DNA from: an uncultured Victivallales bacterium
Lineage (GTDB): Bacteria; Verrucomicrobiota; Lentisphaeria; Victivallales; UBA1829
Reading direction: 5' to 3'
DNA length: 64,000 bases
Assembly (NCBI GenBank): GCA_944390795.1
Contig: CALXRI010000002.1
Span: forward strand, 62,001-126,000
The notes beneath the pieces are model-generated. The model worked only from the letters and a program-made list of their open reading frames with translations. It was not told where the DNA came from and searched no databases. Position numbers and translations under genes: made by a program. This document shows positions 17,019-29,124 of the stretch, piece after piece. The first letter of the stretch is position 1. Every line of letters begins with the position of its first letter.

Positions 17019-18293
17019 ATGAACAACAACGTATTGAAAAAGATTCTTCTGTCTGCGGCGGCGCTTGTGCCGACGGCTTATGCGTCCGGAAACGAAACGC
17101 TTCCGGAAATCTCCTTCAACGGAAACGCCGGAATGCCGCCCCTCTACCGCTGCGGCGAAACGGCGGAATTCAGAATCCGGATGCCGGAAATTCCGGAGGC
17201 GGAAAAGACATTCCAAATCACCCTGCTGGACGACAGGAACAGGAAAGTCCTTCAGAAAGACTGCAATCTTGCGGAACACAGGGAAGTCTCCGTCTCCGGC
17301 ACACTTCAGGAACCGGGATTCCTCCGCTGCCGGATCCTGCTGAGGAAAAACCGAAAACCCGCATTCCGGCCGCTGGTTGCCGCGGCGGGATTCGATGTGG
17401 AAAAAATCCGCCCGGGAGCGGAGCCGGACGCCGACTTCATGGGATTCTGGAAAACGGCAAAAGAAAAGTTCGACCGGAAAATCCCCGCGGATTACCAGGT
17501 GAAATTCATGAAAAGCGCAGGAGGCTTCCGCCACTGCGAGGCGACATGCGCAAATTATGACGGAACAAGAACTTACAGTTTTATCAGCATCCCGGAAAAA
17601 CCGGGAAGATATCCGATTCTCGTGAAAATTCCGCCGGCGGGCCCCGGCATATGGCGTCCCTTCAACCGGGCGAACACCATCACGGCCACCGTCAACGTGC
17701 ATCACAGACGCATGGGCCTTCCGGACGGGAAACAGGATCAGAAGGCGTTCAAGGCGCTGAACACTCCCCTGCTCTACTCCTTCCAGGGGGCGCCGGACCG
17801 TGAAAAATATTATTATTACAAATCGATTCTGGGGGTGCAGAGGATTCTGGATTATCTTACGGCACGCCCGGAATGGGACGGCAGGCATCTGGTCATGGAC
17901 GGCCAGAGCCAGGGCGGAGCGTTTTCCCTGATGATGGCCGCACTGTATCCGAAAGTCACGGCCGCGGCTGCGGAAATCCCGGCGCTGTGCGATCACCGCG
18001 GACCTCAGGCGGGATGGCCCCGTCTGCTTGCAAAAATCAGAAACGCCGATGAAATGTCCGGATATTACGATACGGCTTTCTTCTGCCGGGAAATCCGCGT
18101 TCCGGTCATTGTCGCTGTCGGCATGATCGACACGCTCTGTCCGCCGCGTTCGGTGCTTGCAGCTTTCAACAGCATTCCCGGACAGGAAAAACGCCTTGTC
18201 TACGGACCCTTCACCGGACACGGATGGGGAAAGAAAATGAAGGATTTCGAGTCGCTCCGTCTGGAATTCATCCGGCAGCAGCTGACAAAATAA
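17019..18293 (+). CDS. Secreted acetylxylan esterase-like enzyme (AXE1, CE7)
   Basis: The 424-residue product starts with a signal peptide (KKILLSAAALVPTAYA) and an extra N-terminal beta-sandwich (about 25-125) before an alpha/beta hydrolase of the AXE1/cephalosporin-C deacetylase family. The nucleophile elbow GQSQGG gives Ser297. GMIDTLCPP gives Asp371 and TGHGWG gives His401, a complete triad. The pre-catalytic block KYYYYKSILGVQRILDYL and RPEWDGRHLVMDG is typical. CE7 enzymes remove acetyl groups from short xylo-oligosaccharides and other acetylated compounds. Usual length is about 320 residues; the excess is the N-terminal domain. An AAGGAG-like site precedes ATG 17019, 18 bp after the pseudopilin stop. 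It probably deacetylates the glycan handled by the cluster, outside the cytoplasm. Confidence 0.85.
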   Translation: MNNNVLKKILLSAAALVPTAYASGNETLPEISFNGNAGMPPLYRCGETAEFRIRMPEIPEAEKTFQITLLDDRNRKVLQKDCNLAEHREVSVSGTLQEPGFLRCRILLRKNRKPAFRPLVAAAGFDVEKIRPGAEPDADFMGFWKTAKEKFDRKIPADYQVKFMKSAGGFRHCEATCANYDGTRTYSFISIPEKPGRYPILVKIPPAGPGIWRPFNRANTITATVNVHHRRMGLPDGKQDQKAFKALNTPLLYSFQGAPDREKYYYYKSILGVQRILDYLTARPEWDGRHLVMDGQSQGGAFSLMMAALYPKVTAAAAEIPALCDHRGPQAGWPRLLAKIRNADEMSGYYDTAFFCREIRVPVIVAVGMIDTLCPPRSVLAAFNSIPGQEKRLVYGPFTGHGWGKKMKDFESLRLEFIRQQLTK

Positions 18294-18327
18294 TCCGCAA
18301 TATCATAAGATCAGAAAAAGGTGAAGA

Positions 18328-21300
18328 ATGAAACATCTGAAGACATTTCTGCTTCCGATTCTGACGGGAAGCATGCTCGCGGCATCCGGATTGGAAGGCA
18401 CAACGGTCTTCCGCCATCCGGAAAACCTCGAACTCCCCCGGACCGGGGAGGAAAACGCGAAGGAAATTCCATTTACCCTGCCTGTTCCGGGCGTGGACAA
18501 GCGGGCCGTTCTGCGCTTCAACGCATGGATCGGGCACTCCTCCGGAGGCTGGAACAACACCCTCAGAGTGGAGCTCAACGGGACCCGCCTGACGGAAAAG
18601 ACAAACTCCGGGGAGCAGCGGCTGCTGCGCCGCGGCATGTATCTGGAAAGCCGAACGAAAAATCCCCGCCGCGCATGGTGGAGCGGAAGCGGACTTCTGG
18701 TGCTTTTCGGAGACGGCAATCCGGAAAATCTCGATCGCCGCATCCTGGCTCCCCGGCAGGAGGGATACACCTATCACCTGGACATCACGGATCTGCTCCG
18801 GCGGGGCGGAAACACGCTCAAATTCATCAACAGCTTCAGGCTCGGGAACGACAACGACCCGCACAGGGATGCCGCCCTGCATGTGACGGACATTGCAATC
18901 CTGTTCCTGCAGGATCTGGATGTCAACGCCATGCGGAGCGCCGAACCCCGGAAGGAACCGGCGGCGCCCTGCTGGAAAACCGACGGAACATTCATCCCGT
19001 TCCATTCCCATCCCGGCAGGACATTCGCGCCGGACGAGAAAGACAAGCAGTTCACGGTCGAATTTCCCGCAATGCCGAGAAAAAAGGGATTCACTCCCGT
19101 GCTGGGCTGCCGTTTCTGGCTTGCCACGCCGGCTCCCGGCGGATGGAACTACCACACCGGACTGCTGCTCAATGAAAGCAAACTGGACAAGATGACCGTG
19201 CAGGGGGAAAGCCGTCTGCTGCGCCGCGGCTCCTTCATGGACACAACGCTCCCGAAAGATCCGAAACGCGACTGGTGGCGCGAAGGACAGTTCGTCACTT
19301 TTTTCGGCAACGGGCGCGATGTGGACAGGCGTCTGAAAAACGGACCGGAAGAGGGATACAACTTCCTGTTCGACATTTCCGACCGTGTTCATTATGTGGA
19401 AATCGGCGCCGACAACCGGATTGAAAAAGCGGAAACAAACCGCCTGACTCTGCTCTCCTCCTACAGCACGGAACGGAAAAAAGGGGCGCTTGCGACAGCT
19501 TCCTCCGTGTTTCAGGATATCTTCATCGGATACGTTCCGGACGCGGAGCTTGAGAAAATGCGCCCCCCGGAAACGGATTCCGTGGCGAACCGCAGTATCG
19601 GAACCCGCCTTTTCACACTCGAAGGAAGAGGCTATCTCCTGGATTTCCACCGGAACGGCGGCTTCGTCATCCGCTGCGACGGCATGGAATATTACGTGCA
19701 GGACGCCTTCTCCTTCCCCGGAAAGGGAAAAATGAACTTCACGGAGTGGAATCTGGCGGACGGAAAGACGCCTCCGGAAATCAGACGGAACGGAGGACGC
19801 GTCACCATTCGCCAGAGCAATCCCTTCTTCCGCATGGAACGCACCGTCGAAATTCTGGGGGAGCAGTTCCATGTGACCGATGAAATCACGAATCTTTCCG
19901 GGGCGGATCAGGGCATGCGCACCCGTTTCATCACCACTGCGAGAGACCCGCTGAACGCTCCGCAGACCTTTCTGGGAGGACTCCTGGAAAAGAGCGTCAA
20001 GGACGGGATGAGCGGCCAGAATCCGAGCTTCTTCACCCGGCCTCTCAAGGGCGGATCCCTTGGCATTTACGTCGCCGACGACCTGCTGCGGAATCAGTCC
20101 GGATTCCATCGCACTAGACGGGATCTGATTCTGGACAATCCCCATCTGGGATTTCCCGCCTCCGGCCCGCTCGCGAAAAAGACCCTCGTCCGCCGCTTCT
20201 ATCCCAAAGCCGGCGCGACTTATTTCGACTTCGTCAACCAGGTCCGCCGCGACCTGAATCTGAACCGGACAATGACCGGATATTTCGGATTCGGCTCCCG
20301 CCCCTCCAAAATGCCCGCGGTGGATCACTATGCGCTTTCCCAGTGGTTTGAATGGGACGCCAATTCCCGCTGGACAAACCGCGAGGACTACCGGATCAAA
20401 AAACAGGCCGAGATGGCGCGGATCAAAAAAGCGATTCCATGGGCGAAATGTCTCGCGCGTCTGGAATCGAACATTCTCAACATCAAACGCAGTTCCGTTC
20501 CAGGCGGGGAGAAGCTGCCTGACGGGCGGCGCGGAAAAGGCGGCGGCGTCTATGGACTGGAGCTCAACGATGAACAGAACGCCATTCTCCGGAACTCCCC
20601 CTTTTCCGATTCCCTCATGCGCAATGCCAAAGGGCATGCCGTGGTGGACACCAGCTACGCCCATCCGGGGGATCTGAATCTCCTCGTGCATTTCGCGGAA
20701 GGCAATTACCGCCTCAGGCATGTTCTGGAACAGATCGACTATGTTCTCGACGTGGTCGGACTGGACGGCGTCTATCTGGATCAGTTCGTCCCCGGATGCG
20801 ATCAGGAGCTCGACAACAACAAACGCTGCAGTTACGACAAATGGGATCGCCTCACCGTCGACCTGAATCCGGACGGCACGATCAGGCGGAAAATCTACGA
20901 CTACATCAACGCCGGAAGCTCCGCGCGGGCGAAGATCGTGAAACATGTCGCTTCCAAGGGAAAAATCATGTACAACAACAACCATCCCGTCACCATGGAA
21001 ACCAACGGGCTGCCCTCCTACAGCTTCTGCGAAAGCGGGGGCCCCGGCACAGCAATGGAGGTCAAACATACGGCGAAGCCTGCCATCGTGCGCTGCCACG
21101 CGCTGGCGCAGCTTTCCGGCAGTCCGCTCACGCTGGGCTATCAGGAACGGACGCCGAAGGAACTCAGCGGGAAATATTACAACCGGGCGGTCATCGTCGG
21201 GCTCCGGCACGGCGTGCTCTATGCGCGCTACGGACTGGAACCCGATCCGGAATTCGGCGGAGCGTTCGCCACCGACCACATGTATCCGATCACGCCGCTG

Positions 21301-21537
21301 GAACTGGGGGAAGGATTCATCATCGGAAAAGAACGGATCATCAGCTGCGTTTCGCGGAAGTTCACGGTCCGCTCGGCGGAAAAACCGCAGGTTCTCTGCG
21401 GGGATGAAAACGGGCGCCGGAAACAGGCGTTTCATGCGGACGTCACGCGCTCGGGAGATGCCTGGGTGGTGGATCTGAAGCTCAAAGACTGGAACGAGGT
21501 CGCCGTGATTCTGATTCTTCCCGGCGGGAAACGGTGA
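18328..21537 (+). CDS. Large secreted protein with duplicated beta-domain and putative glycosidase barrel
   Basis: This 1069-residue protein has a signal peptide (MKHLKTFLLPILTGSMLAAS). Two related beta-rich modules follow, at about residues 46-190 and 241-370. They share GGWN, RLLRRG, a KxPxRxWW-type block, LFG/FFG followed by xG, VDRR/LDRR, and EGYxxxxDI(T/S)D. The middle (about 390-610) looks like a glycan-binding or supersandwich region. The C-terminal half resembles a TIM barrel, with DYVLDVVGLDGVYLDQFVPG near 805-825, YNNNHPVTMETNGLPS and a following MEVKHTAKP segment; Asp817 and Asp820 vicinity are candidate acidic residues. I do not recognise a CAZy family. Position in the operon, 34 bp after the esterase and 21 bp before the next gene, implies action on the same extracellular glycan. 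The glycosidase role is inference. Confidence 0.62.
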   Translation: MKHLKTFLLPILTGSMLAASGLEGTTVFRHPENLELPRTGEENAKEIPFTLPVPGVDKRAVLRFNAWIGHSSGGWNNTLRVELNGTRLTEKTNSGEQRLLRRGMYLESRTKNPRRAWWSGSGLLVLFGDGNPENLDRRILAPRQEGYTYHLDITDLLRRGGNTLKFINSFRLGNDNDPHRDAALHVTDIAILFLQDLDVNAMRSAEPRKEPAAPCWKTDGTFIPFHSHPGRTFAPDEKDKQFTVEFPAMPRKKGFTPVLGCRFWLATPAPGGWNYHTGLLLNESKLDKMTVQGESRLLRRGSFMDTTLPKDPKRDWWREGQFVTFFGNGRDVDRRLKNGPEEGYNFLFDISDRVHYVEIGADNRIEKAETNRLTLLSSYSTERKKGALATASSVFQDIFIGYVPDAELEKMRPPETDSVANRSIGTRLFTLEGRGYLLDFHRNGGFVIRCDGMEYYVQDAFSFPGKGKMNFTEWNLADGKTPPEIRRNGGRVTIRQSNPFFRMERTVEILGEQFHVTDEITNLSGADQGMRTRFITTARDPLNAPQTFLGGLLEKSVKDGMSGQNPSFFTRPLKGGSLGIYVADDLLRNQSGFHRTRRDLILDNPHLGFPASGPLAKKTLVRRFYPKAGATYFDFVNQVRRDLNLNRTMTGYFGFGSRPSKMPAVDHYALSQWFEWDANSRWTNREDYRIKKQAEMARIKKAIPWAKCLARLESNILNIKRSSVPGGEKLPDGRRGKGGGVYGLELNDEQNAILRNSPFSDSLMRNAKGHAVVDTSYAHPGDLNLLVHFAEGNYRLRHVLEQIDYVLDVVGLDGVYLDQFVPGCDQELDNNKRCSYDKWDRLTVDLNPDGTIRRKIYDYINAGSSARAKIVKHVASKGKIMYNNNHPVTMETNGLPSYSFCESGGPGTAMEVKHTAKPAIVRCHALAQLSGSPLTLGYQERTPKELSGKYYNRAVIVGLRHGVLYARYGLEPDPEFGGAFATDHMYPITPLELGEGFIIGKERIISCVSRKFTVRSAEKPQVLCGDENGRRKQAFHADVTRSGDAWVVDLKLKDWNEVAVILILPGGKR

Positions 21538-21558
21538 CATGGAAGGAGAGGGGAAAAC

Positions 21559-23715
21559 ATGAACAAACGGGACATCAGGCCGATTGTCGGGTATTCCTAT
21601 CCGGTCACAGTGGAAAAACTCCGCGAGATGCTGGATCTCAAGGGCGGACTGCTGGTCCGCGGCGCGCTTCCCCGGAAAAAGGAGGAGGCGCTGGCGGCGG
21701 TCCGCTTCTGCCGGGAGAACGGCATCCGGATTCTGCTCGGGGAAATCGTTCCGCGCGGCGAACTCCGGAAAAGCTCGGTTTACTCTCCGGAGGATTTTCA
21801 GGAGATCGTGAAAGAGGCCGGCGACGCGCTGCTGGGAGTCTACGGGCTCGGAGAAGCGGGCGGCATTCTCTACTGGCCCAAATACTATACGATGAACCGC
21901 GCGGCGAAAACCTGGAAAAACCTGGAAAAGGCGGATTCTCCGGCGGACGCGAGAAAAAAACTGGTGGAGTATTTCCGGAAGTTCGTGGAGCTGCAGCGTT
22001 CCGTCATGGGCTCCGAAACGCCCCTGAGCATTGTGGAGTCCTCCCAGATTCTGCAGTACCAGAAGGAGGCGGGCGCCGATTTCTTCGTTCATGAGATGTG
22101 TCCCGGCAATCCCCTCGAGCTGCTTCCCGCCTACCGGGGCATGGCGCGCGCCTGCCACAGCATATGGGGAACCCACATCGCCATCGGCTGGTACGGCGGA
22201 ATCCGCATGGACGAGCTCTGGATGAAACGCTGGAAACTGTGCCTGTATCTTGCCTTTCTGCAGGGCGCCGACATCATTTATCCGGAGAGCGGACACTATA
22301 CCTACCAGGTGGACAAGTGGGGGGAAACGCGCTGGAACATGTTCGACCGCGATCATCCGAACCTGCTGCGCGCCCGGCGGATTCTGCGGGAGTTCTACCG
22401 CTTCTGCATGATTCACCAGCGTCCGACATCCGATCCGGAAACCCGCATCGGGATTCTCTTCGGCAACAACGAGGGTTTTCCGAATCTCTGGAATCCCTAT
22501 GCCTGGGGCCAGTATGAAAACGGGAAGGAGTGGGAGGCCGGTCCGCCCGAACAGGGATGGAAGCTTCCGCAGGCTCTGCTCCGCAAGGAGAACGTGTTCC
22601 ATGAAACCGTCATGGGGGAGTGCAACCGTTCCGGCAATCCGGCGGGAGGGCAGTATGACGTGGTCCCGCTGGAAACGGCGGAGGATCTTTCCCGCTACAA
22701 GGCGCTCGCATTCGTCGGCTGGAACGACATGAACGACGCGCAATACGCAAAACTGCTCGAATACGTCCGGAACGGCGGACATCTGCTGATCTGGCCGGCC
22801 CACTGCAATGTTTCGGGAAAGCGGACGGAACTGCGCCTTTACAGGGACGGCGATCTTTCGGAGCTGTGCGGAATCCGGATCAAGGGATGGAAGACGACGG
22901 ATGTCCGCGGATTCAAATTCGTTTCGGCGGATTCTCTGCTCGGCGACGCCATCCCCTACTGGGGCAGCCGACACGATCCGTGGTGGATGGGCAGAATCAC
23001 GCCGGCGGAAATTGAAATCAGCGGAGAAGACGCCCGGATTCTGGCGGGATTCTCCTACCATATCCGGGAATACGACTCGGATCTGCTGGCGGAACCGGCC
23101 CTGATCGAGCACCGTGTCGGAAAGGGAATGGTCTGGACCGTGGCCGTCAGGGAGTATCCCGGCGACGGCGGCGCCTTTCCTTTTGCCGAAGCGCTCCTGC
23201 GGATCCTCAACACCGGCGAAATGTCCGACCCCGACGCCGTCTGCCCGGAGCAGATCCGTTATGCAATCTATCATACGGAAATCAGCGGGGTTCCGGTCCG
23301 GATTTTCTATCTTCTGAACACGGAAACGGAGTGCAGCGTCGGATTCCGGTTCCGGGCCGGCGGAAAACTTTCGCGGGAATACCGTCTGGAACCGGCCGGC
23401 TTCACAGCGGCTTATCTGATCGACTCGATGCTGATCCTGCCAAGCTGTGCCGCCCACAGACTGCATGAAGTGCACAGGTACGGAGACTCGCTCCGCCTGG
23501 AGTTCCATATGCTCGAAGAGTGCGCCGTTCTGCAGGAAGACCTCTCCGGAAAAAAACGCAAGCTCTTCTGCAACGGACGGGAAGGACGCTGTCCGGCGCG
23601 CAGGGAAGAGGAGCTGGCGGAGTACTACGCGCCGGATTTTCTGGAGGAACCGGACATCACGCAGTATCCCCATCACGCGCCGTTTGTGCACCTTACCCAA
23701 AAACTGCAGAGCTGA
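21559..23715 (+). CDS. Cytoplasmic glycosidase-like protein with GH42-type amidotransferase-like domain
   Basis: The 718-residue protein has no signal peptide. The first 330 residues look like a TIM barrel: FCRENGIRILLGEIVPRG, VYGLGEAGGILYWPKY, SIVESSQILQY, FFVHEMCPGNPLELLPAYRG, GADIIYPESGHYTY. Glu99, Glu179 and Glu243 are candidate catalytic acids. Residues about 400-560 (YKALAFVGWNDMNDAQYAKL, LLEYVRNGGHLLIWPA) resemble the class-I-glutamine-amidotransferase-like trimerisation domain of GH42 beta-galactosidases. A beta C-terminus follows. Homology to a named family is not certain. The ATG is preceded by GGAGAGG. It is the last gene of the operon, and its cytoplasmic location suggests it cleaves imported oligosaccharides. 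Similarity in layout to the preceding secreted protein suggests a pair acting inside and outside. Confidence 0.6.
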   Translation: MNKRDIRPIVGYSYPVTVEKLREMLDLKGGLLVRGALPRKKEEALAAVRFCRENGIRILLGEIVPRGELRKSSVYSPEDFQEIVKEAGDALLGVYGLGEAGGILYWPKYYTMNRAAKTWKNLEKADSPADARKKLVEYFRKFVELQRSVMGSETPLSIVESSQILQYQKEAGADFFVHEMCPGNPLELLPAYRGMARACHSIWGTHIAIGWYGGIRMDELWMKRWKLCLYLAFLQGADIIYPESGHYTYQVDKWGETRWNMFDRDHPNLLRARRILREFYRFCMIHQRPTSDPETRIGILFGNNEGFPNLWNPYAWGQYENGKEWEAGPPEQGWKLPQALLRKENVFHETVMGECNRSGNPAGGQYDVVPLETAEDLSRYKALAFVGWNDMNDAQYAKLLEYVRNGGHLLIWPAHCNVSGKRTELRLYRDGDLSELCGIRIKGWKTTDVRGFKFVSADSLLGDAIPYWGSRHDPWWMGRITPAEIEISGEDARILAGFSYHIREYDSDLLAEPALIEHRVGKGMVWTVAVREYPGDGGAFPFAEALLRILNTGEMSDPDAVCPEQIRYAIYHTEISGVPVRIFYLLNTETECSVGFRFRAGGKLSREYRLEPAGFTAAYLIDSMLILPSCAAHRLHEVHRYGDSLRLEFHMLEECAVLQEDLSGKKRKLFCNGREGRCPARREEELAEYYAPDFLEEPDITQYPHHAPFVHLTQKLQS

Positions 23716-23757: not shown

Positions 23758-24612
23758 TTATTGCGCTCCCCACCAGAAGGGCAGGAGGTCGCCGAGACGC
23801 ACCGTCCGGAGGCAGCCGGATGCGGAAACGAGGATTTCCATTCCGCTGTTTTCCGGCGCAAGCTGCATGAAGAATTCCCGGCATGCGCCGCAGGGAAGTC
23901 CGGGCGCGCCGGAGGGCATCAGACACACAAGTTTCACGGCGCGGCATTCGCCCGCCGAGATCATGGATGCCGCCGCGGCGCGCTCCGCGCACATTCCGAG
24001 GGAACAGGCGGTATCGATGCACACTCCGATGTGGATGTTTCCGCGGTCCGTCAGAAGCGCGGCGGAAACGCCGCCGGCTTCCACGAACGGAGAGAGTTTC
24101 CGCGGAAACTGTCTCTGTTTTGCTGCAAGCGTCAGGAAATCCCAGACAGGCAGTGTTTCCGCACGGTAGATCCTTGACACCCCGCCGGAGAGATCCCGCG
24201 CCATGCCGGCAAATTCAAATCCGTATTTTTCATAATATCCGATGAGATCCGTGCAGAGAAAAATCTCGCGGAAGGAAAGGCGTGCCGCCTCCTGCTTCAG
24301 ATGGGCGATCAGAAGCGCGCCGCAGCCGCGGGTGCGATACTCCTCCCTGACGAAAAGCGCGCACAGCCAGGGCCGGAGATCGGCGCGCGAAGTGAAATCA
24401 CTGATGACCAGCCCCGCTCCGCCGGCAATATCCCCGTCCGTATTCCGAAGCAGATACCACTGCGGCAGCGGCAAAGCGGAATCCAGGGAGGCTCTCATGC
24501 AGTCTGCATAAAATTCCTTCCGTTGCCAGACGGATGAAAAGGCGTCGACAAAACATTGCAGATCCTGCGGATTTTCCCGCAGCGAGAAAATCGTCCAGGC
24601 GCTCGGCTTCAT
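23758..24612 (-). CDS. GNAT acetyltransferase-cytidine deaminase-like fusion
   Basis: A single 284-residue frame joins two enzymes. Residues 1-155 are a GNAT domain: LCALFVREEYRTRGCGALLI carries the RxxGxGA acetyl-CoA loop, and IGYYEKYGFEFAG is the usual C-terminal strand. Residues 165-284 match the cytidine deaminase fold: MCAERAA supplies a zinc Cys208 and the proton-shuttle Glu210, and PCGACREFF supplies Cys241 and Cys244. All four catalytic positions are intact. The fusion point lies around LPVWDFLTLAAKQ. GGAGGA is six bases before the ATG. It ends 43 bp from the converging saccharide operon and is 120 bp downstream of recQ. The combined activity is unknown; one guess is modification of a nucleoside-like antibiotic or metabolite. 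Confidence 0.82.
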   Translation of the reverse strand: MKPSAWTIFSLRENPQDLQCFVDAFSSVWQRKEFYADCMRASLDSALPLPQWYLLRNTDGDIAGGAGLVISDFTSRADLRPWLCALFVREEYRTRGCGALLIAHLKQEAARLSFREIFLCTDLIGYYEKYGFEFAGMARDLSGGVSRIYRAETLPVWDFLTLAAKQRQFPRKLSPFVEAGGVSAALLTDRGNIHIGVCIDTACSLGMCAERAAAASMISAGECRAVKLVCLMPSGAPGLPCGACREFFMQLAPENSGMEILVSASGCLRTVRLGDLLPFWWGAQ

Positions 24613-24731
24613 GTGTTCCTCCTTCTGAATTTTCCTGTCAAAAACGAAGACCGGATGCGCCGGCGATTCCGTCCGCAGCCTTGCATTTTCAGCGACAGCT
24701 TCTCCGCGGCATCAATCCCCCATGTCATGTC

Positions 24732-27077
24732 TCAGGAGCTCCACTCCTGCACTGCCGCAAGAAAAACAGGAACAATCGTGCGGATCTTCGATGCGCCGAC
24801 TCCGCGGAGCGCCGCGGCCTCCGGGATCGAAATCGGCCGCCGGGCGGCAAACTCCCGCAACGCGGCATCCGTCAGGATGCAGTAAGGGGGAACGCCTTTT
24901 TTCGCCGCAAGACCGGCACGGATCTTCCGCAGATGTTCGAAAAGCTCCTCGTCACTGCCGAAAAGCGCGCGTTCCGCCTGTTTTTCCCGTACGGCGGCGA
25001 CTCTCCTTTTCACCGTCCTCCCCCGATCCGGCGTTCCGGCGTTCCGCATCTCCGGAATGGCCAGTTCCGGCAGCACACCATCGCGAAGCGCCCCCTGCCC
25101 CGCGGGGCTCAGTCCGAGACAGGGATATTCCGGATTTCCGACACGTTCGAGATACCCGGCGGCCTCCAGGGATTTGAGAATGAGCAGAAGATTGCTCTGG
25201 CCCCACTCTTTCAGCTTCCCGAAGAACGGACTCCGCACAAATCCGCTCCGGAGAATCTCCGGACGGCGTGCTCCGGCGAGAATCAGACTCAGGCGTCCGC
25301 TCCCGATCCGGCCTTCAAACGAACGGACCGCGCGCAGAACCGTCAGAACAGCATCTCGTTCGGATCCGGAAAGAGTCCGGGCGCATGCGGCGGATTCCGT
25401 GCAGGTGTCGCAGTTTCCGCACTTCCAGGCGCCGGGCTTTTCGCCGAAATAGGAGATGAGATACGCCTGACGGCATGTCCCCTGCCGCGTATAGCGGATC
25501 ATGTCCTCCAGACGCTCAAGCTCCAGATTCCGCTTGTAATCCAGCTCTCCGAAATCGACGGCAAGCTTCTCCTCCTCCGGACGGAGCAGCGTCACGGCCC
25601 GTCCGCGGAACGGAAGCGTGTACTGCAGAACGGAACCGTTCAGACTGGCAAGCACGCGTTTCACCTGGTCGGTCCGGAGCCCGCTGACGGCGGCAAGTTC
25701 CTCATAGGCGTATTCCTTCTCCAGAAGCGCGCGGCTCCCGTTTGCGGCAAGGAAACGCGCAAGAAAGCGCGAACGCTGGGTATTCTGCGCTTCATGTTCG
25801 CGGAACAGCGCATCGGGATCTCCCGTGATGCGCAGCGTCACACGGTCATGCGCATTCGGCGCGCGCTCCAGATAGCCGTTCTGTTCCAGAATGTTCAGGG
25901 ATGTCCCGATCTGTCCCTCGGCTCTGGCCTCCGGAATCCGTTCCAGAAGCTGCGCATGGGTCAGTTCCAGGGTTGCGGAGGAGCGTCTGCGGGATTCCGC
26001 CAGAAGCGCGGCATAGACGGCTTCCACCACCTCCTGAGGCGGATTGCTGAGATCGATCAGAAACTCCTGCACGAAACGGTCCGCGGCGGAATAGAAAAGG
26101 ATGCATTCGGCGGCTTCGCCGTCGCGTCCGGCGCGCCCGGCTTCCTGATAATAGGCCTCAATCGAACCCGGAATGTTGTAGTGGATCACACGCCGGACAT
26201 CCGGACGGTCGATTCCCATTCCGAAGGCGTTGGTCGCAACGAGGAGCGGACTTTCCTCGTTCATGAAACGCTCCTGCGCCGCGCTCCGGTCGGCGTCGGA
26301 CATTCCGGCATGATAGGCGATGCAGGCGAACTCCTCGCGCAGCTGCTCTACGGCCTTGCGCGTGGACGTGTAGATGATGGAAGGAAGCTTCCTTCCGGAA
26401 AGGATTCTGCGAAGATGCGCGTTTTTCTGTTCCGCGCCGCCGGCATGCACAACGGAAAAAGCCAGATTCGGACGCCGGAATCCCGCCGCGTGGAGAATCA
26501 TATCCGGACGCCGGAGCTGGCGGAGAATGTCCTCCCGCACCTGCGGAGTCGCAGTGGCGGTGAACGCGCAGACCTGCGGAATCCGGTATGCCTCGATCAT
26601 TTCCCCGAGCCGCAGGTAGGAAGGACGGAAATCATGCCCCCACTGACTGATGCAGTGCGCCTCGTCAACAACAAGCGCCTCGGGAGGATTCGACTCGAGA
26701 AATGCGCGGAAGGAGTTCGACTGAAAACGTTCCGGTGCGACATATAAAAGCTTTATGCGACAGTTTATGATATCATTCAGTATCATATTCTGTTCCGAAA
26801 ACGCAAGACTCGTATTGATGAAGGCGGCCGGAATGCCGCGCTCGCGCAGGGAGTCCACCTGATCCTTCATCAATGAGATCAGCGGGGAAACGATGATGCT
26901 GTAACCGTTCCGCAGCAGAAGCGGCAGCTGGTAGCAGAGCGACTTTCCCGCTCCGGTCGGCATGATGACGCAGACGTCCTCCCCGTTCAGAATGTCGCGG
27001 ACAACCGCTTCCTGATGGTCCAGAAAGGAATCGAAGGAGAAATAACGCTTCAGGGCAAGTCGGAGTTCTTCGCTCAT
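24732..27077 (-). CDS. recQ: ATP-dependent DNA helicase RecQ
   Basis: A 781-residue SF2 helicase. Walker A is [13 protein letters not shown] (residues 40-52), the DEAH box at 138-141 is followed by [17 protein letters not shown], typical of RecQ, and motif VI reads [13 protein letters not shown]. The zinc-binding region has the pattern WKCGNCDTC after an upstream CRQAY. A winged-helix RQC part follows, and the C-terminus is an HRDC domain ([17 protein letters not shown] ... [15 protein letters not shown]). The length exceeds E. coli RecQ (about 610) because of an enlarged region between helicase and HRDC. It unwinds 3'-5' in recombination and fork repair. GGAGG lies 11 bases before ATG 27077. 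It follows the aguA gene with a 96-bp gap on the same strand. Confidence 0.95.
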
Positions 27078-27173: not shown

Positions 27174-28238
27174 TCACCGCGGCTGCTGCTGGCTCAGACA
27201 GTGCAGCGCGCCTCCTTCCAGAATGATGTCGCTGCAGTCGATCGGAATCACCGTGCGGCCCGGATAGGCCTGCGCAATGACGGCAAGCGCCTCGGAATCG
27301 GCAAAATACTGACGGTAGGTCGGCACCAGAACCGCCTGATTGATGAGCAGGAAATTGGCATAGGTTGCCGGAAGAATCTCCTCGCGCCAGCCTTCGGGGC
27401 GGATCGGACGCGGCGAATTCAGAGGAATGACTTCCAGCAGGGAACCGCTGTCCGCCGTGCGCATTCTCCGGAGTGCGCGGATGTTGTCACGGAGCACGTC
27501 ATGATTCGGATTCCATGCCGGCGCGGAGGGTGCGAGAACGACATCCTCGGAAACGAATCTCGCCAGAGTGTCGATGTGTCCGTCCGTATCGTCTCCGGCC
27601 AGTCCGCGGTCCAGCCACAGCACCTGTTCGACGCCGAGCGATTCGCGGAGAATCCGTTCCGCCTCAGGCTCGGTGATCTCCGGATTCCGGTTCGGGTTCA
27701 GGATCACGGAACGGGTGGTCAGGAGATCGCCCGCGCCGTTCACTTCCAGCGCGCCGCCTTCGCAGACGAAGGGAATGCGGAAACGGCGGAACCCCAGCTG
27801 TTCGGCGACCTGCGCGGGGACGGCGTCATCCCTGTCCCAGGGCGGGAATTTCCCGCCCCATGCATTGTATGTGAAGTCGAGAACAGCCCGTTCCCCGGTC
27901 TGCGGATTTTTCACGAAAACCGGGCCGTGATCCCGGCACCAGGCGTCATTGGTCGGAATGTCCAGAAGTTCAATCCGCCCGAAATGCGCATCGGCGTCCG
28001 CCAGAGCGTCATTGACGCGGTCGAATTCGGACGCGGCGCACAGAATGCGGACCCGTTCATATTGCGAAATCGCGGAAGCAAAAGTCGCATACGCCTCTTC
28101 GGCGCGGCGGAACACGCCCGGCCAGGTCTCCGGATTCGACGGCCAGCTCAGAAAGACGGCCTCCTGCGCGCTCCATTCCGGCGGCATGACAAAGCCGAGG
28201 GCCTTCGGAGATTCACCGTTTGCAAAGGAATCAATCAT
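27174..28238 (-). CDS. aguA: Agmatine deiminase
   Basis: This 354-residue cytoplasmic enzyme belongs to the PAD_porph/agmatine deiminase family. It hydrolyses agmatine to N-carbamoylputrescine and ammonia. Diagnostic blocks are MPPEWSAQEAVFLSWPSNPETWPG at the start, NDAWCRDHGPVFV, GGALEVNGAGDLLTT, GDDTDGHIDTLARFV with the catalytic His/Asp, and the terminal GGALHCLSQQQP, which holds the nucleophilic Cys. The start overlaps the end of aguB by 8 bp. The pair therefore forms a putrescine pathway from agmatine. No arginine decarboxylase gene is in the window. Confidence 0.93.
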   Translation of the reverse strand: MIDSFANGESPKALGFVMPPEWSAQEAVFLSWPSNPETWPGVFRRAEEAYATFASAISQYERVRILCAASEFDRVNDALADADAHFGRIELLDIPTNDAWCRDHGPVFVKNPQTGERAVLDFTYNAWGGKFPPWDRDDAVPAQVAEQLGFRRFRIPFVCEGGALEVNGAGDLLTTRSVILNPNRNPEITEPEAERILRESLGVEQVLWLDRGLAGDDTDGHIDTLARFVSEDVVLAPSAPAWNPNHDVLRDNIRALRRMRTADSGSLLEVIPLNSPRPIRPEGWREEILPATYANFLLINQAVLVPTYRQYFADSEALAVIAQAYPGRTVIPIDCSDIILEGGALHCLSQQQPR

Positions 28239-29124
28239 TGAAGCGCCTCGTCAGGTTTTCATATGCGTCGATCCGCCGGTCGCGGAAGAAGGGCCACATT
28301 CTTCTGTGCTCCTCCATTGCGCGGAAGTCGCATTCGGCATACAGGACGGCACATTCCTCTTCGGGTCCCAGGGTCATGTGGTTGCCGTAGAAGTCGCAGA
28401 CGAACGAAGAACCCCAGAATTTCGTCCCGTGCTCGACGCCGACGCGGTTGACCGCGGCGTAATAGCATCCGTTCGCAACCGCATGCCCGCGCTGGACGTT
28501 CAGCCATGCGTCGCGCTGAAGCGCGGCAAGTTCGGCTCCTTCTCCGGCAATCCCGCCGATCGCCGTCGGACAGAAAATGATTTTCGCCCCCCGGAGCGCG
28601 GTCAGACGCGCCGACTCCGGATACCACTGATCCCAGCAGACGATCACGCCGATCCTGCCGTATTTCGTATCGAAGGCGCGGAATCCGAGATCTCCCGGTG
28701 CGAAATAGAATTTTTCTTCAAAACCGGGATCCTGCGGGATATGCATCTTGCGGTATTTCCCGAGAAAGGAGCCGTCCGCGTCGATCACGGCCGCCGTATT
28801 GTGATACAGGCCCGGAGCGCGGAATTCAAAAAGGGAGAGAATCAGCACCACAGCGTGTTTTGCAGCGATCCCGCGGAAACGGTCCGTCAGCGCCGACGGA
28901 ACCGGATGCGAAAGGTCAAAAAAGGCCGGATCCTGCTTCCAGCAGAAATATTCCGTCAGGAAAAGCTCCTGCGTGCAGATGATTTTCGCTCCGTTCGCGG
29001 CTGCTTCGGCAATCAGCGACTCCGTCACATCCGCCGCTTCGGCGACGGACGCGCGCGCCTTGTCCTGAAGCAGTGCAATTTTCACAATCCCGCATTCCAT
29101 CGTGATCCGCCATCCTTCCGTCAT
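28231..29124 (-). CDS. aguB: N-carbamoylputrescine amidase
   Basis: A nitrilase-superfamily amidohydrolase of 297 residues that converts N-carbamoylputrescine to putrescine, CO2 and ammonia. The catalytic triad is readable: Glu in IICTQELFLTEYFCW, Lys in LGKYRKMHIPQDPGF, Cys in GVIVCWDQWYPESAR. The sequence EEKFYFAPGDLGF and GVEHGTKFWGSSFVCD are typical of AguB. ATG 29124 overlaps the recR stop (ATGA), which argues for coupled translation; ATG 29100 (MECGIVKIALLQ) would better match the usual family N-terminus. It overlaps aguA downstream by 8 bp. Confidence 0.92.
   Translation of the reverse strand: MTEGWRITMECGIVKIALLQDKARASVAEAADVTESLIAEAAANGAKIICTQELFLTEYFCWKQDPAFFDLSHPVPSALTDRFRGIAAKHAVVLILSLFEFRAPGLYHNTAAVIDADGSFLGKYRKMHIPQDPGFEEKFYFAPGDLGFRAFDTKYGRIGVIVCWDQWYPESARLTALRGAKIIFCPTAIGGIAGEGAELAALQRDAWLNVQRGHAVANGCYYAAVNRVGVEHGTKFWGSSFVCDFYGNHMTLGPEEECAVLYAECDFRAMEEHRRMWPFFRDRRIDAYENLTRRFND

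Follow-up and report, generated by a model that had tools for sequence, protein, structure and literature searches.

What would a bacterium do with one protein that carries an acetyltransferase at one end and a deaminase at the other? The question is raised by a gene in the stretch of DNA analyzed here (the window, 64,000 nucleotides from a contig of an uncultured Victivallales bacterium), for which the original prediction had described a single 284-residue frame with a GNAT domain and a cytidine deaminase-like domain. That description is borne out, and the strand, which the prediction had not given, is the minus strand: the frame runs from window position 24612 down to 23758, starts with ATG and has zero internal stops over its 284 aa, and the plus-strand reading of the same bases (23758-24612) in that register contains stops. 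The AlphaFold2 model of the whole protein consists of two folded domains and is confident (mean pLDDT 92.0, pTM 0.87). A promoter scan for the fused gene gave nothing exceeding chance. The gene, its domains and its motifs are as follows.

23758-24612, minus strand: fused gene, 284 aa, with an N-terminal GNAT acetyltransferase and a C-terminal cytidine-deaminase-fold domain
24618-24624, minus strand: AAGGAGG, likely ribosome-binding site, 5 bases before the ATG, as read from the sequence
24157-24612, minus strand: GNAT domain, residues 1-152 (PF00583, phmmer and Foldseek)
24319-24336, minus strand: acetyl-CoA loop R93-T-R-G-C-G98 (R-x-x-G-x-G), from the alignment
23761-24156, minus strand: deaminase domain, residues 153-284, cytidine-deaminase fold (NCBIfam, model and structure comparison)
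24013-24027, minus strand: G196-V-C198-I-D200, at the place of Gly40-x-Asn42-x-Glu44 of cytidine deaminases
23983-23991, minus strand: C208-A-E210, the first zinc ligand together with the catalytic glutamate, present throughout the 100 aligned rows
23881-23895, minus strand: P240-C241-G-A-C244, which holds the second and the third zinc ligand, each of them Cys in all 100 aligned rows

The positions predicted for the motifs (the RTRGCGA loop, Cys208-Ala-Glu210 and Pro-Cys241-x-x-Cys244) are exact as given, and the accompanying claim that both active sites are intact holds at the level of sequence, where the motif residues of both halves are kept. The GNAT half scores 42.4 bits against PF00583 (Acetyltransf_1), for which the cut-off is 20.7, and thus belongs to the GNAT superfamily. 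Its nearest solved structure is 9y12 from Bacteroides fragilis (Foldseek rank 1; phmmer 2.6e-34), which has the same fold and is 43% identical across the GNAT half; that protein differs in being a stand-alone domain of 154 residues, and its title, 'N-acetyl transferase domain-containing protein', gives no substrate. The acetyl-CoA loop of GNATs follows the pattern R/Q-x-x-G-x-G/A, to which the loop of the window protein conforms. All 41 aligned rows (39 of them different) have Arg at position 93, 36 of the 41 have Gly at position 94, where the window protein has Thr, and the corresponding loop in the sister genome G002 reads R-S-R-S-C-G.

The deaminase half is matched by established models below their thresholds: dCMP_cyt_deam_1 of Pfam gives 14.8 bits (cut-off 25), the models of NCBIfam for cytidine deaminase reach 2.2e-13, below their cut-offs, and TIGR01354, the model for tetrameric cytidine deaminases (CDAs), gives 50.4 bits as against a family cut-off of 113.65. 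For the window protein as a whole, 0 of 16 NCBIfam matches (listed up to E 10) pass the curated cut-offs, resistance models included. Modelled on its own, the deaminase part reaches a pLDDT of 91.8, and the three-Cys zinc site and catalytic Glu that mark cytidine deaminases are present in 100 of 100 aligned members of its family. The substrate pocket has changed. According to a report on CDA_F14 (PMC9897663), the substrate contacts of that enzyme are Tyr24, Asn42, Glu44, Ala46 and Tyr48, the last four of which contact the ribose. In B. subtilis 1jtk, position 24 is Phe. The corresponding residues of the window protein are Cys198, Asp200, Ala202 and Ser204, with Gly180 at position 24, i.e., Asn is replaced by Cys and Glu by Asp, an acid is retained at position 44 and Ala at 46, and Asn42, Tyr48 and the aromatic residue at 24 are missing. 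Among the 100 aligned members of the family, 93 have His or Gly at position 24 (3 have Tyr), 98 have Cys in place of Asn42, 54 have Ala at position 46, and all have Gly, Ser or Thr at position 48; an acid, Glu or Asp, is retained at position 44 in all 100, which counts against the detoxification reading proposed below. With two ribose contacts lost, plain cytidine is unlikely to be the natural substrate. Compared with the tetrameric cytidine deaminases (TIGR01354; B. subtilis 1jtk and M. tuberculosis 3ijf), the window protein has the fold, zinc site and catalytic Glu in common, but it lacks the ribose-binding Asn42 and Tyr48, is changed at position 24, falls far under the family cut-off and is joined to a GNAT domain. 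Its own profile sets the family apart from housekeeping CDAs, giving members 145-220 bits and other matches at most 63 in the 20 genomes to which the loci described below led.

The explanation that we favor, with moderate confidence, is that the gene encodes an accessory enzyme with two activities, which serves to detoxify small molecules or to confer resistance and does so by modifying a small amino compound. The N-terminal GNAT domain would bind acetyl-CoA and acetylate a free amine, and the C-terminal zinc domain would hydrolytically deaminate a ring, cytosine-like or of another amino-heterocyclic type, at its exocyclic amino group; given the altered pocket, the substrate is more likely to be a modified nucleoside-like compound or other natural product than cytidine. 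Both sites are presumed to be active, with one compound or one class of compounds as their common target and resistance or detoxification as the benefit to the cell; that the two domains act in succession on one molecule, as the original prediction had it, is an inference. By analogy with the bifunctional aminoglycoside-modifying enzymes, a single polypeptide would tie the expression of the two activities together and offer two routes by which a compound can be inactivated. A known enzyme of that type is AAC(6')-Ie/APH(2'')-Ia (PMC5722643), which likewise places two drug-modifying domains on one polypeptide, an arrangement predicted from sequence for the window protein, and which, as described there, differs in that its acetyltransferase is joined to a phosphotransferase rather than to a deaminase. 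The observations on which this detoxification reading is based are the fusion itself, the presence of both motif sets, selection over the whole frame, a patchy and relocating distribution, and fusion partners of drug-modifying type. Any single named drug is an improbable target. Both domain superfamilies and bifunctional drug-modifying enzymes are known; a GNAT-cytidine deaminase fusion was not found in searches of an open-access library.

An unlikely alternative, though one with evidence of its own, is pyrimidine salvage, in which the C-terminal domain would simply supply this lineage with its cytidine deaminase, the GNAT domain being carried along for some metabolic or N-acetylcytidine-related use. 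With the model for tetrameric cytidine deaminases, the host genome gives no further match and 0 of 197 genomes of the window's class have a tetrameric CDA above the curated cut-off, which leaves room for a salvage role in the window's lineage; the domain agrees with CDAs in its fold and in its zinc site, and CDAs can also act on N4-acylcytidines (PMC9897663). Nevertheless, the pocket that would have to hold cytidine has lost Asn42 and Tyr48 in nearly all and in all aligned members of the family, respectively, and is changed at position 24 in most of them, the score against the CDA model is less than half of its cut-off, and most of the 197 class genomes are without the deaminase domain. The family is also found beside ordinary enzymes. 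Among 391 genomes of Clostridia, the class to which Konateibacter (G205) belongs, in which members score 105-210 against the family profile, 45 carry the deaminase, and 27 of these 45 own an ordinary tetrameric CDA as well, approximately the level expected by chance (227 of the 391 genomes have one).

The same fusion is intact in 4 of 4 genus genomes compared, with identities to the window protein of 93% (G002), 69% (G003) and 61% (G001), and the Nei-Gojobori dN/dS ratios of the whole gene against the window are 0.30, 0.19 and 0.23, respectively. For the GNAT and deaminase parts taken separately the ratios are 0.35 and 0.29 (G002), 0.24 and 0.16 (G003), and 0.29 and 0.18 (G001), and in the linker pN is lower than pS in all three comparisons (the linker dS for G003 being saturated). 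Purifying selection acts on GNAT, linker and deaminase alike. A missing stop or other assembly artefact is ruled out by the intact frame in four genomes together with the dN/dS values, and we consider it confirmed that the gene is a genuine GNAT-deaminase fusion with both catalytic motif sets kept in one conserved frame. Relatives thus do carry the fusion, a matter on which the original prediction had staked itself, and they include, beyond the four genus members, G087 of another family, which has the same domain order at 43% identity; this GNAT-deaminase order is present in 5 of 197 class genomes. Trees of both halves unite the four genus members (support 100/96 and 96/89). Grouping G087 with the genus gives a p-AU of 0.042 in the deaminase tree, where G087 stands apart, and of 0.103 in the GNAT tree, where the grouping is not rejected, so that a second, independent origin of the same domain pair in G087 is likely on these trees but not secure.

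Outside the fusion, each half is a widespread accessory gene that mostly stands alone. From 106 loci found in other genomes we kept 80 and fetched up to 6 kb of flanking DNA on each side; 2 of the 80 hold the fusion, 26 only the GNAT and 52 only the deaminase, and in all 78 single-half loci the other half is absent within the fetched flanks. The genomes with the GNAT loci belong to Bacillota, Bacteroidota, Ignavibacteriota and Lentisphaerota, and those with the deaminase loci mainly to Clostridia. Both halves are present in 11 of the 391 Clostridia genomes, the GNAT being found in 39, as against 4.5 co-occurrences expected (Fisher p 0.002, by a test that ignores kinship and genome size), an excess that speaks for the detoxification reading. 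The neighbors of stand-alone copies are mostly unremarkable, with PF00583 in 5 of 88, 2 of 45 and 5 of 66 neighbor proteins (raw counts). In Clostridia the deaminase lies in a frame of at least 250 aa in 1 of 46 matches, as compared to 3 of 150 for ordinary CDAs among the matches listed, i.e., it is fused no more often than they are, which counts against the resistance reading; long frames with ordinary CDAs were seen in G450, G573 and G563. In Lentisphaeria, fusions account for 7 of the 35 deaminase matches that exceed 69 bits (one of these seven, G148, by frame length only), and a high fusion rate of the deaminase is a feature of this class. The 324-aa frame of G057 (L017) was not counted as a fusion, as the part preceding its deaminase looks like out-of-frame sequence. 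A different arrangement was observed in G042, G049 and G054, all from one Lentisphaeria family, in which two CDA-like matches lie inside one frame of 303-338 aa.

It could be argued from these counts that the domains were joined by chance, two unrelated activities without a common substrate having been brought together in a neutral fusion that one genus happens to have kept, and the 78 of 80 loci with one half alone, together with the unexceptional rate of long frames in Clostridia, speak for such an accident. We regard this as distinctly unlikely, as the fusion has been kept down to 61% identity within the genus, the pair has probably formed a second time in G087 (with the disagreement between the two trees noted above), and the deaminase is also fused to GNATs of other kinds, which may precede or follow it: a RimJ-like GNAT stands at its N-terminus in L102 and L134, and another GNAT at its C-terminus in L117 (= G149), with a frame of the same 290-aa length in G148.

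Where the gene lies bears on whom it might protect. A search of relatives for the domain pair, which the original prediction had proposed together with a look at the neighbors, found the pair, and in the window it is flanked by the following genes.

24732-27077, minus strand: recQ helicase, the upstream neighbor, adjoining the fused gene also in G002 and not in G001 or G003
27174-28238, minus strand: agmatine deiminase-family gene (context)
28231-29124, minus strand: carbon-nitrogen hydrolase (context)

The fused gene follows recQ on the same strand, with recR beyond the hydrolase, and sugar-degradation-type genes lie on its opposite side. The block that includes the fused gene is common to the window and G002. 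G001 and G003 both possess recQ and the agmatine deiminase gene, but the fused gene is missing from the DNA downstream of them (about 1.5 kb seen) and is located elsewhere; it thus occupies three places in four genomes, in the manner of an accessory gene that can move and unlike a component of a producer's cluster. A polyamine acetylation operon with putrescine genes, considered because the agmatine deiminase gene lies two genes upstream, was dropped on account of the same arrangement in G001 and G003. The fusion was not found on plasmids or phages, 0 of 53 matching plasmid records and 0 of 8 phage records covering 80% of the protein; single halves do occur in such records. Near the fused gene in the window, no antibiotic biosynthesis or nucleoside-antibiotic cluster was recognised (13 proteins, including the fused one, were scanned with Pfam and the remaining ones were read from the gene list).

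The original prediction had gone further and proposed self-protection against blasticidin- or puromycin-like compounds. Self-protection of a producer finds no footing in these surroundings, neither in the neighbors of the gene nor in its different location in G001 and G003. It is very unlikely that nucleosides of the blasticidin S or puromycin type, which the pairing of deaminase and acetyltransferase would fit, are the specific compounds against which the enzyme gives resistance or self-protection. Blasticidin S deaminases (1wn6, 2z3g, 3oj6) do have the top score when the model of the deaminase domain is compared by VIA-align (Z 17.7, with mycobacterial CDAs up to 17.3 and the B. subtilis CDA at 14.5), but structure scores within Z 1 count as tied, as are those of blasticidin S deaminase and the mycobacterial CDAs. 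By sequence, the window protein is far nearer to ordinary cytidine deaminases (E 3.9e-10) than to blasticidin S deaminase, to which its similarity is weak (E 0.0016), and in the family-profile search blasticidin S deaminase ranks beneath the CDAs; nothing in the sequence favors either named drug. The stretch preceding the CAE motif is shorter in the window protein than in CDAs, like that of 3oj6, and 3oj6 is the first sequence match of one relative (L017, G057). Glu246 (CRE instead of CRQ) was dropped as a mark of blasticidin deaminases, since 3oj6 itself has CRQ. What stands of the predicted modification enzyme is a two-domain protein with a putative role in detoxification, which fits the fusion partners of both halves, without the self-protection and the specific drugs. 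An anti-phage enzyme of nucleotide depletion would be in keeping with the service in defence of dCTP deaminases, which belong to the same superfamily, and with weak PADLOC matches of the nucleotidyltransferase part of the G001 protein to candidate PDC-S09 models (9.4e-08), but it is extremely improbable, as the window protein matches no PADLOC model and, in the structure comparison, dCMP deaminases reach a Z of about 8, far short of the cytidine and blasticidin S deaminases.

The fusion partners of the two halves extend the detoxification reading and also set limits to it. In G001, of the same genus as the window, an ANT(9)/AadA-like domain, the GNAT and the deaminase form a triple frame of 532 aa, in which the ANT-like domain scores 48.0 bits with AadA_C (cut-off 22.2) and 73.6 bits with the ANT(9) model, far under its cut-off of 340. 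An AGGGAG, which is a fair ribosome site, precedes an internal ATG at the AadA/GNAT junction, and the triple frame may be translated in two parts from this internal start. A search of the window's own genome with AadA_C gave no match, and is uninformative as control genomes were equally silent. As a separate observation, the locus in G001 (L123:6227-8261) holds a further GNAT frame that overlaps the end of the triple frame by 17 bases, making up a small cluster of drug-modifying type. Elsewhere, GrpB is fused to the deaminase in L133 and to the GNAT in L127 (by Pfam; L128 and L129 are alike by reading), and the GNAT is joined to a methyltransferase in L106 and L158, to a second GNAT in L155 and L156 (L157 is alike by reading), and in L110 to a nucleotidyltransferase-like domain that is 42% identical to one in L130. 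Fusions of this last type were seen in Lentisphaeria in both orders (L130:4411-5442, L131:4265-5290 and L110:634-1941), and their nucleotidyltransferase part is poorly covered by Pfam. Apart from GrpB, the partner types represent reaction types by which bacteria inactivate antibiotics. Against the resistance reading, the GrpB and RimJ-like partner domains are only about 30% alike across different fusions, and GNATs are promiscuous in fusion, which counts against reading much into their partners.

A bolder and rather unlikely extension would be that drug-modifying domains (GNAT, altered cytidine deaminase, methyltransferases, and nucleotidyltransferases of ANT-like and GrpB type) form an interchangeable stock common to Lentisphaerota and Clostridia and have repeatedly been welded into two- or three-enzyme proteins, and that the window gene is one of these, a new resistance enzyme that would acetylate and deaminate the same amino-heterocyclic antibiotic. 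If so, multi-enzyme candidates for resistance would make up a recurring set, the fused proteins of which, as far as they were scanned with NCBIfam, pass no resistance-model cut-off, and there would be a deaminase family with its pocket changed for another substrate, which models match only as a sub-threshold 'cytidine deaminase'; the ANT-like/GNAT/deaminase relative in G001 would then be a direct lead to the class of compound.

Some minor observations may be recorded here. At L162:4064-5418, a gene resembling 23S rRNA G745/G748-N1 methyltransferases lies 47 bp before a stand-alone deaminase of the family, which speaks for the detoxification reading; the methyltransferase-like gene scores 172.9 bits with NF008300, below the cut-off of 303, and its next matches are Erm(32), ChrB and MyrA. 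In the window, an open frame of 1810 aa (18268-23700, minus strand) lies opposite two sugar-degradation-type genes and is most likely spurious, as can occur in DNA of high G+C content. A protein of 1069 aa encoded at 18328-21537 has no Pfam match at 1e-4, and its neighbor has a borderline match to a beta-galactosidase-trimerisation domain.
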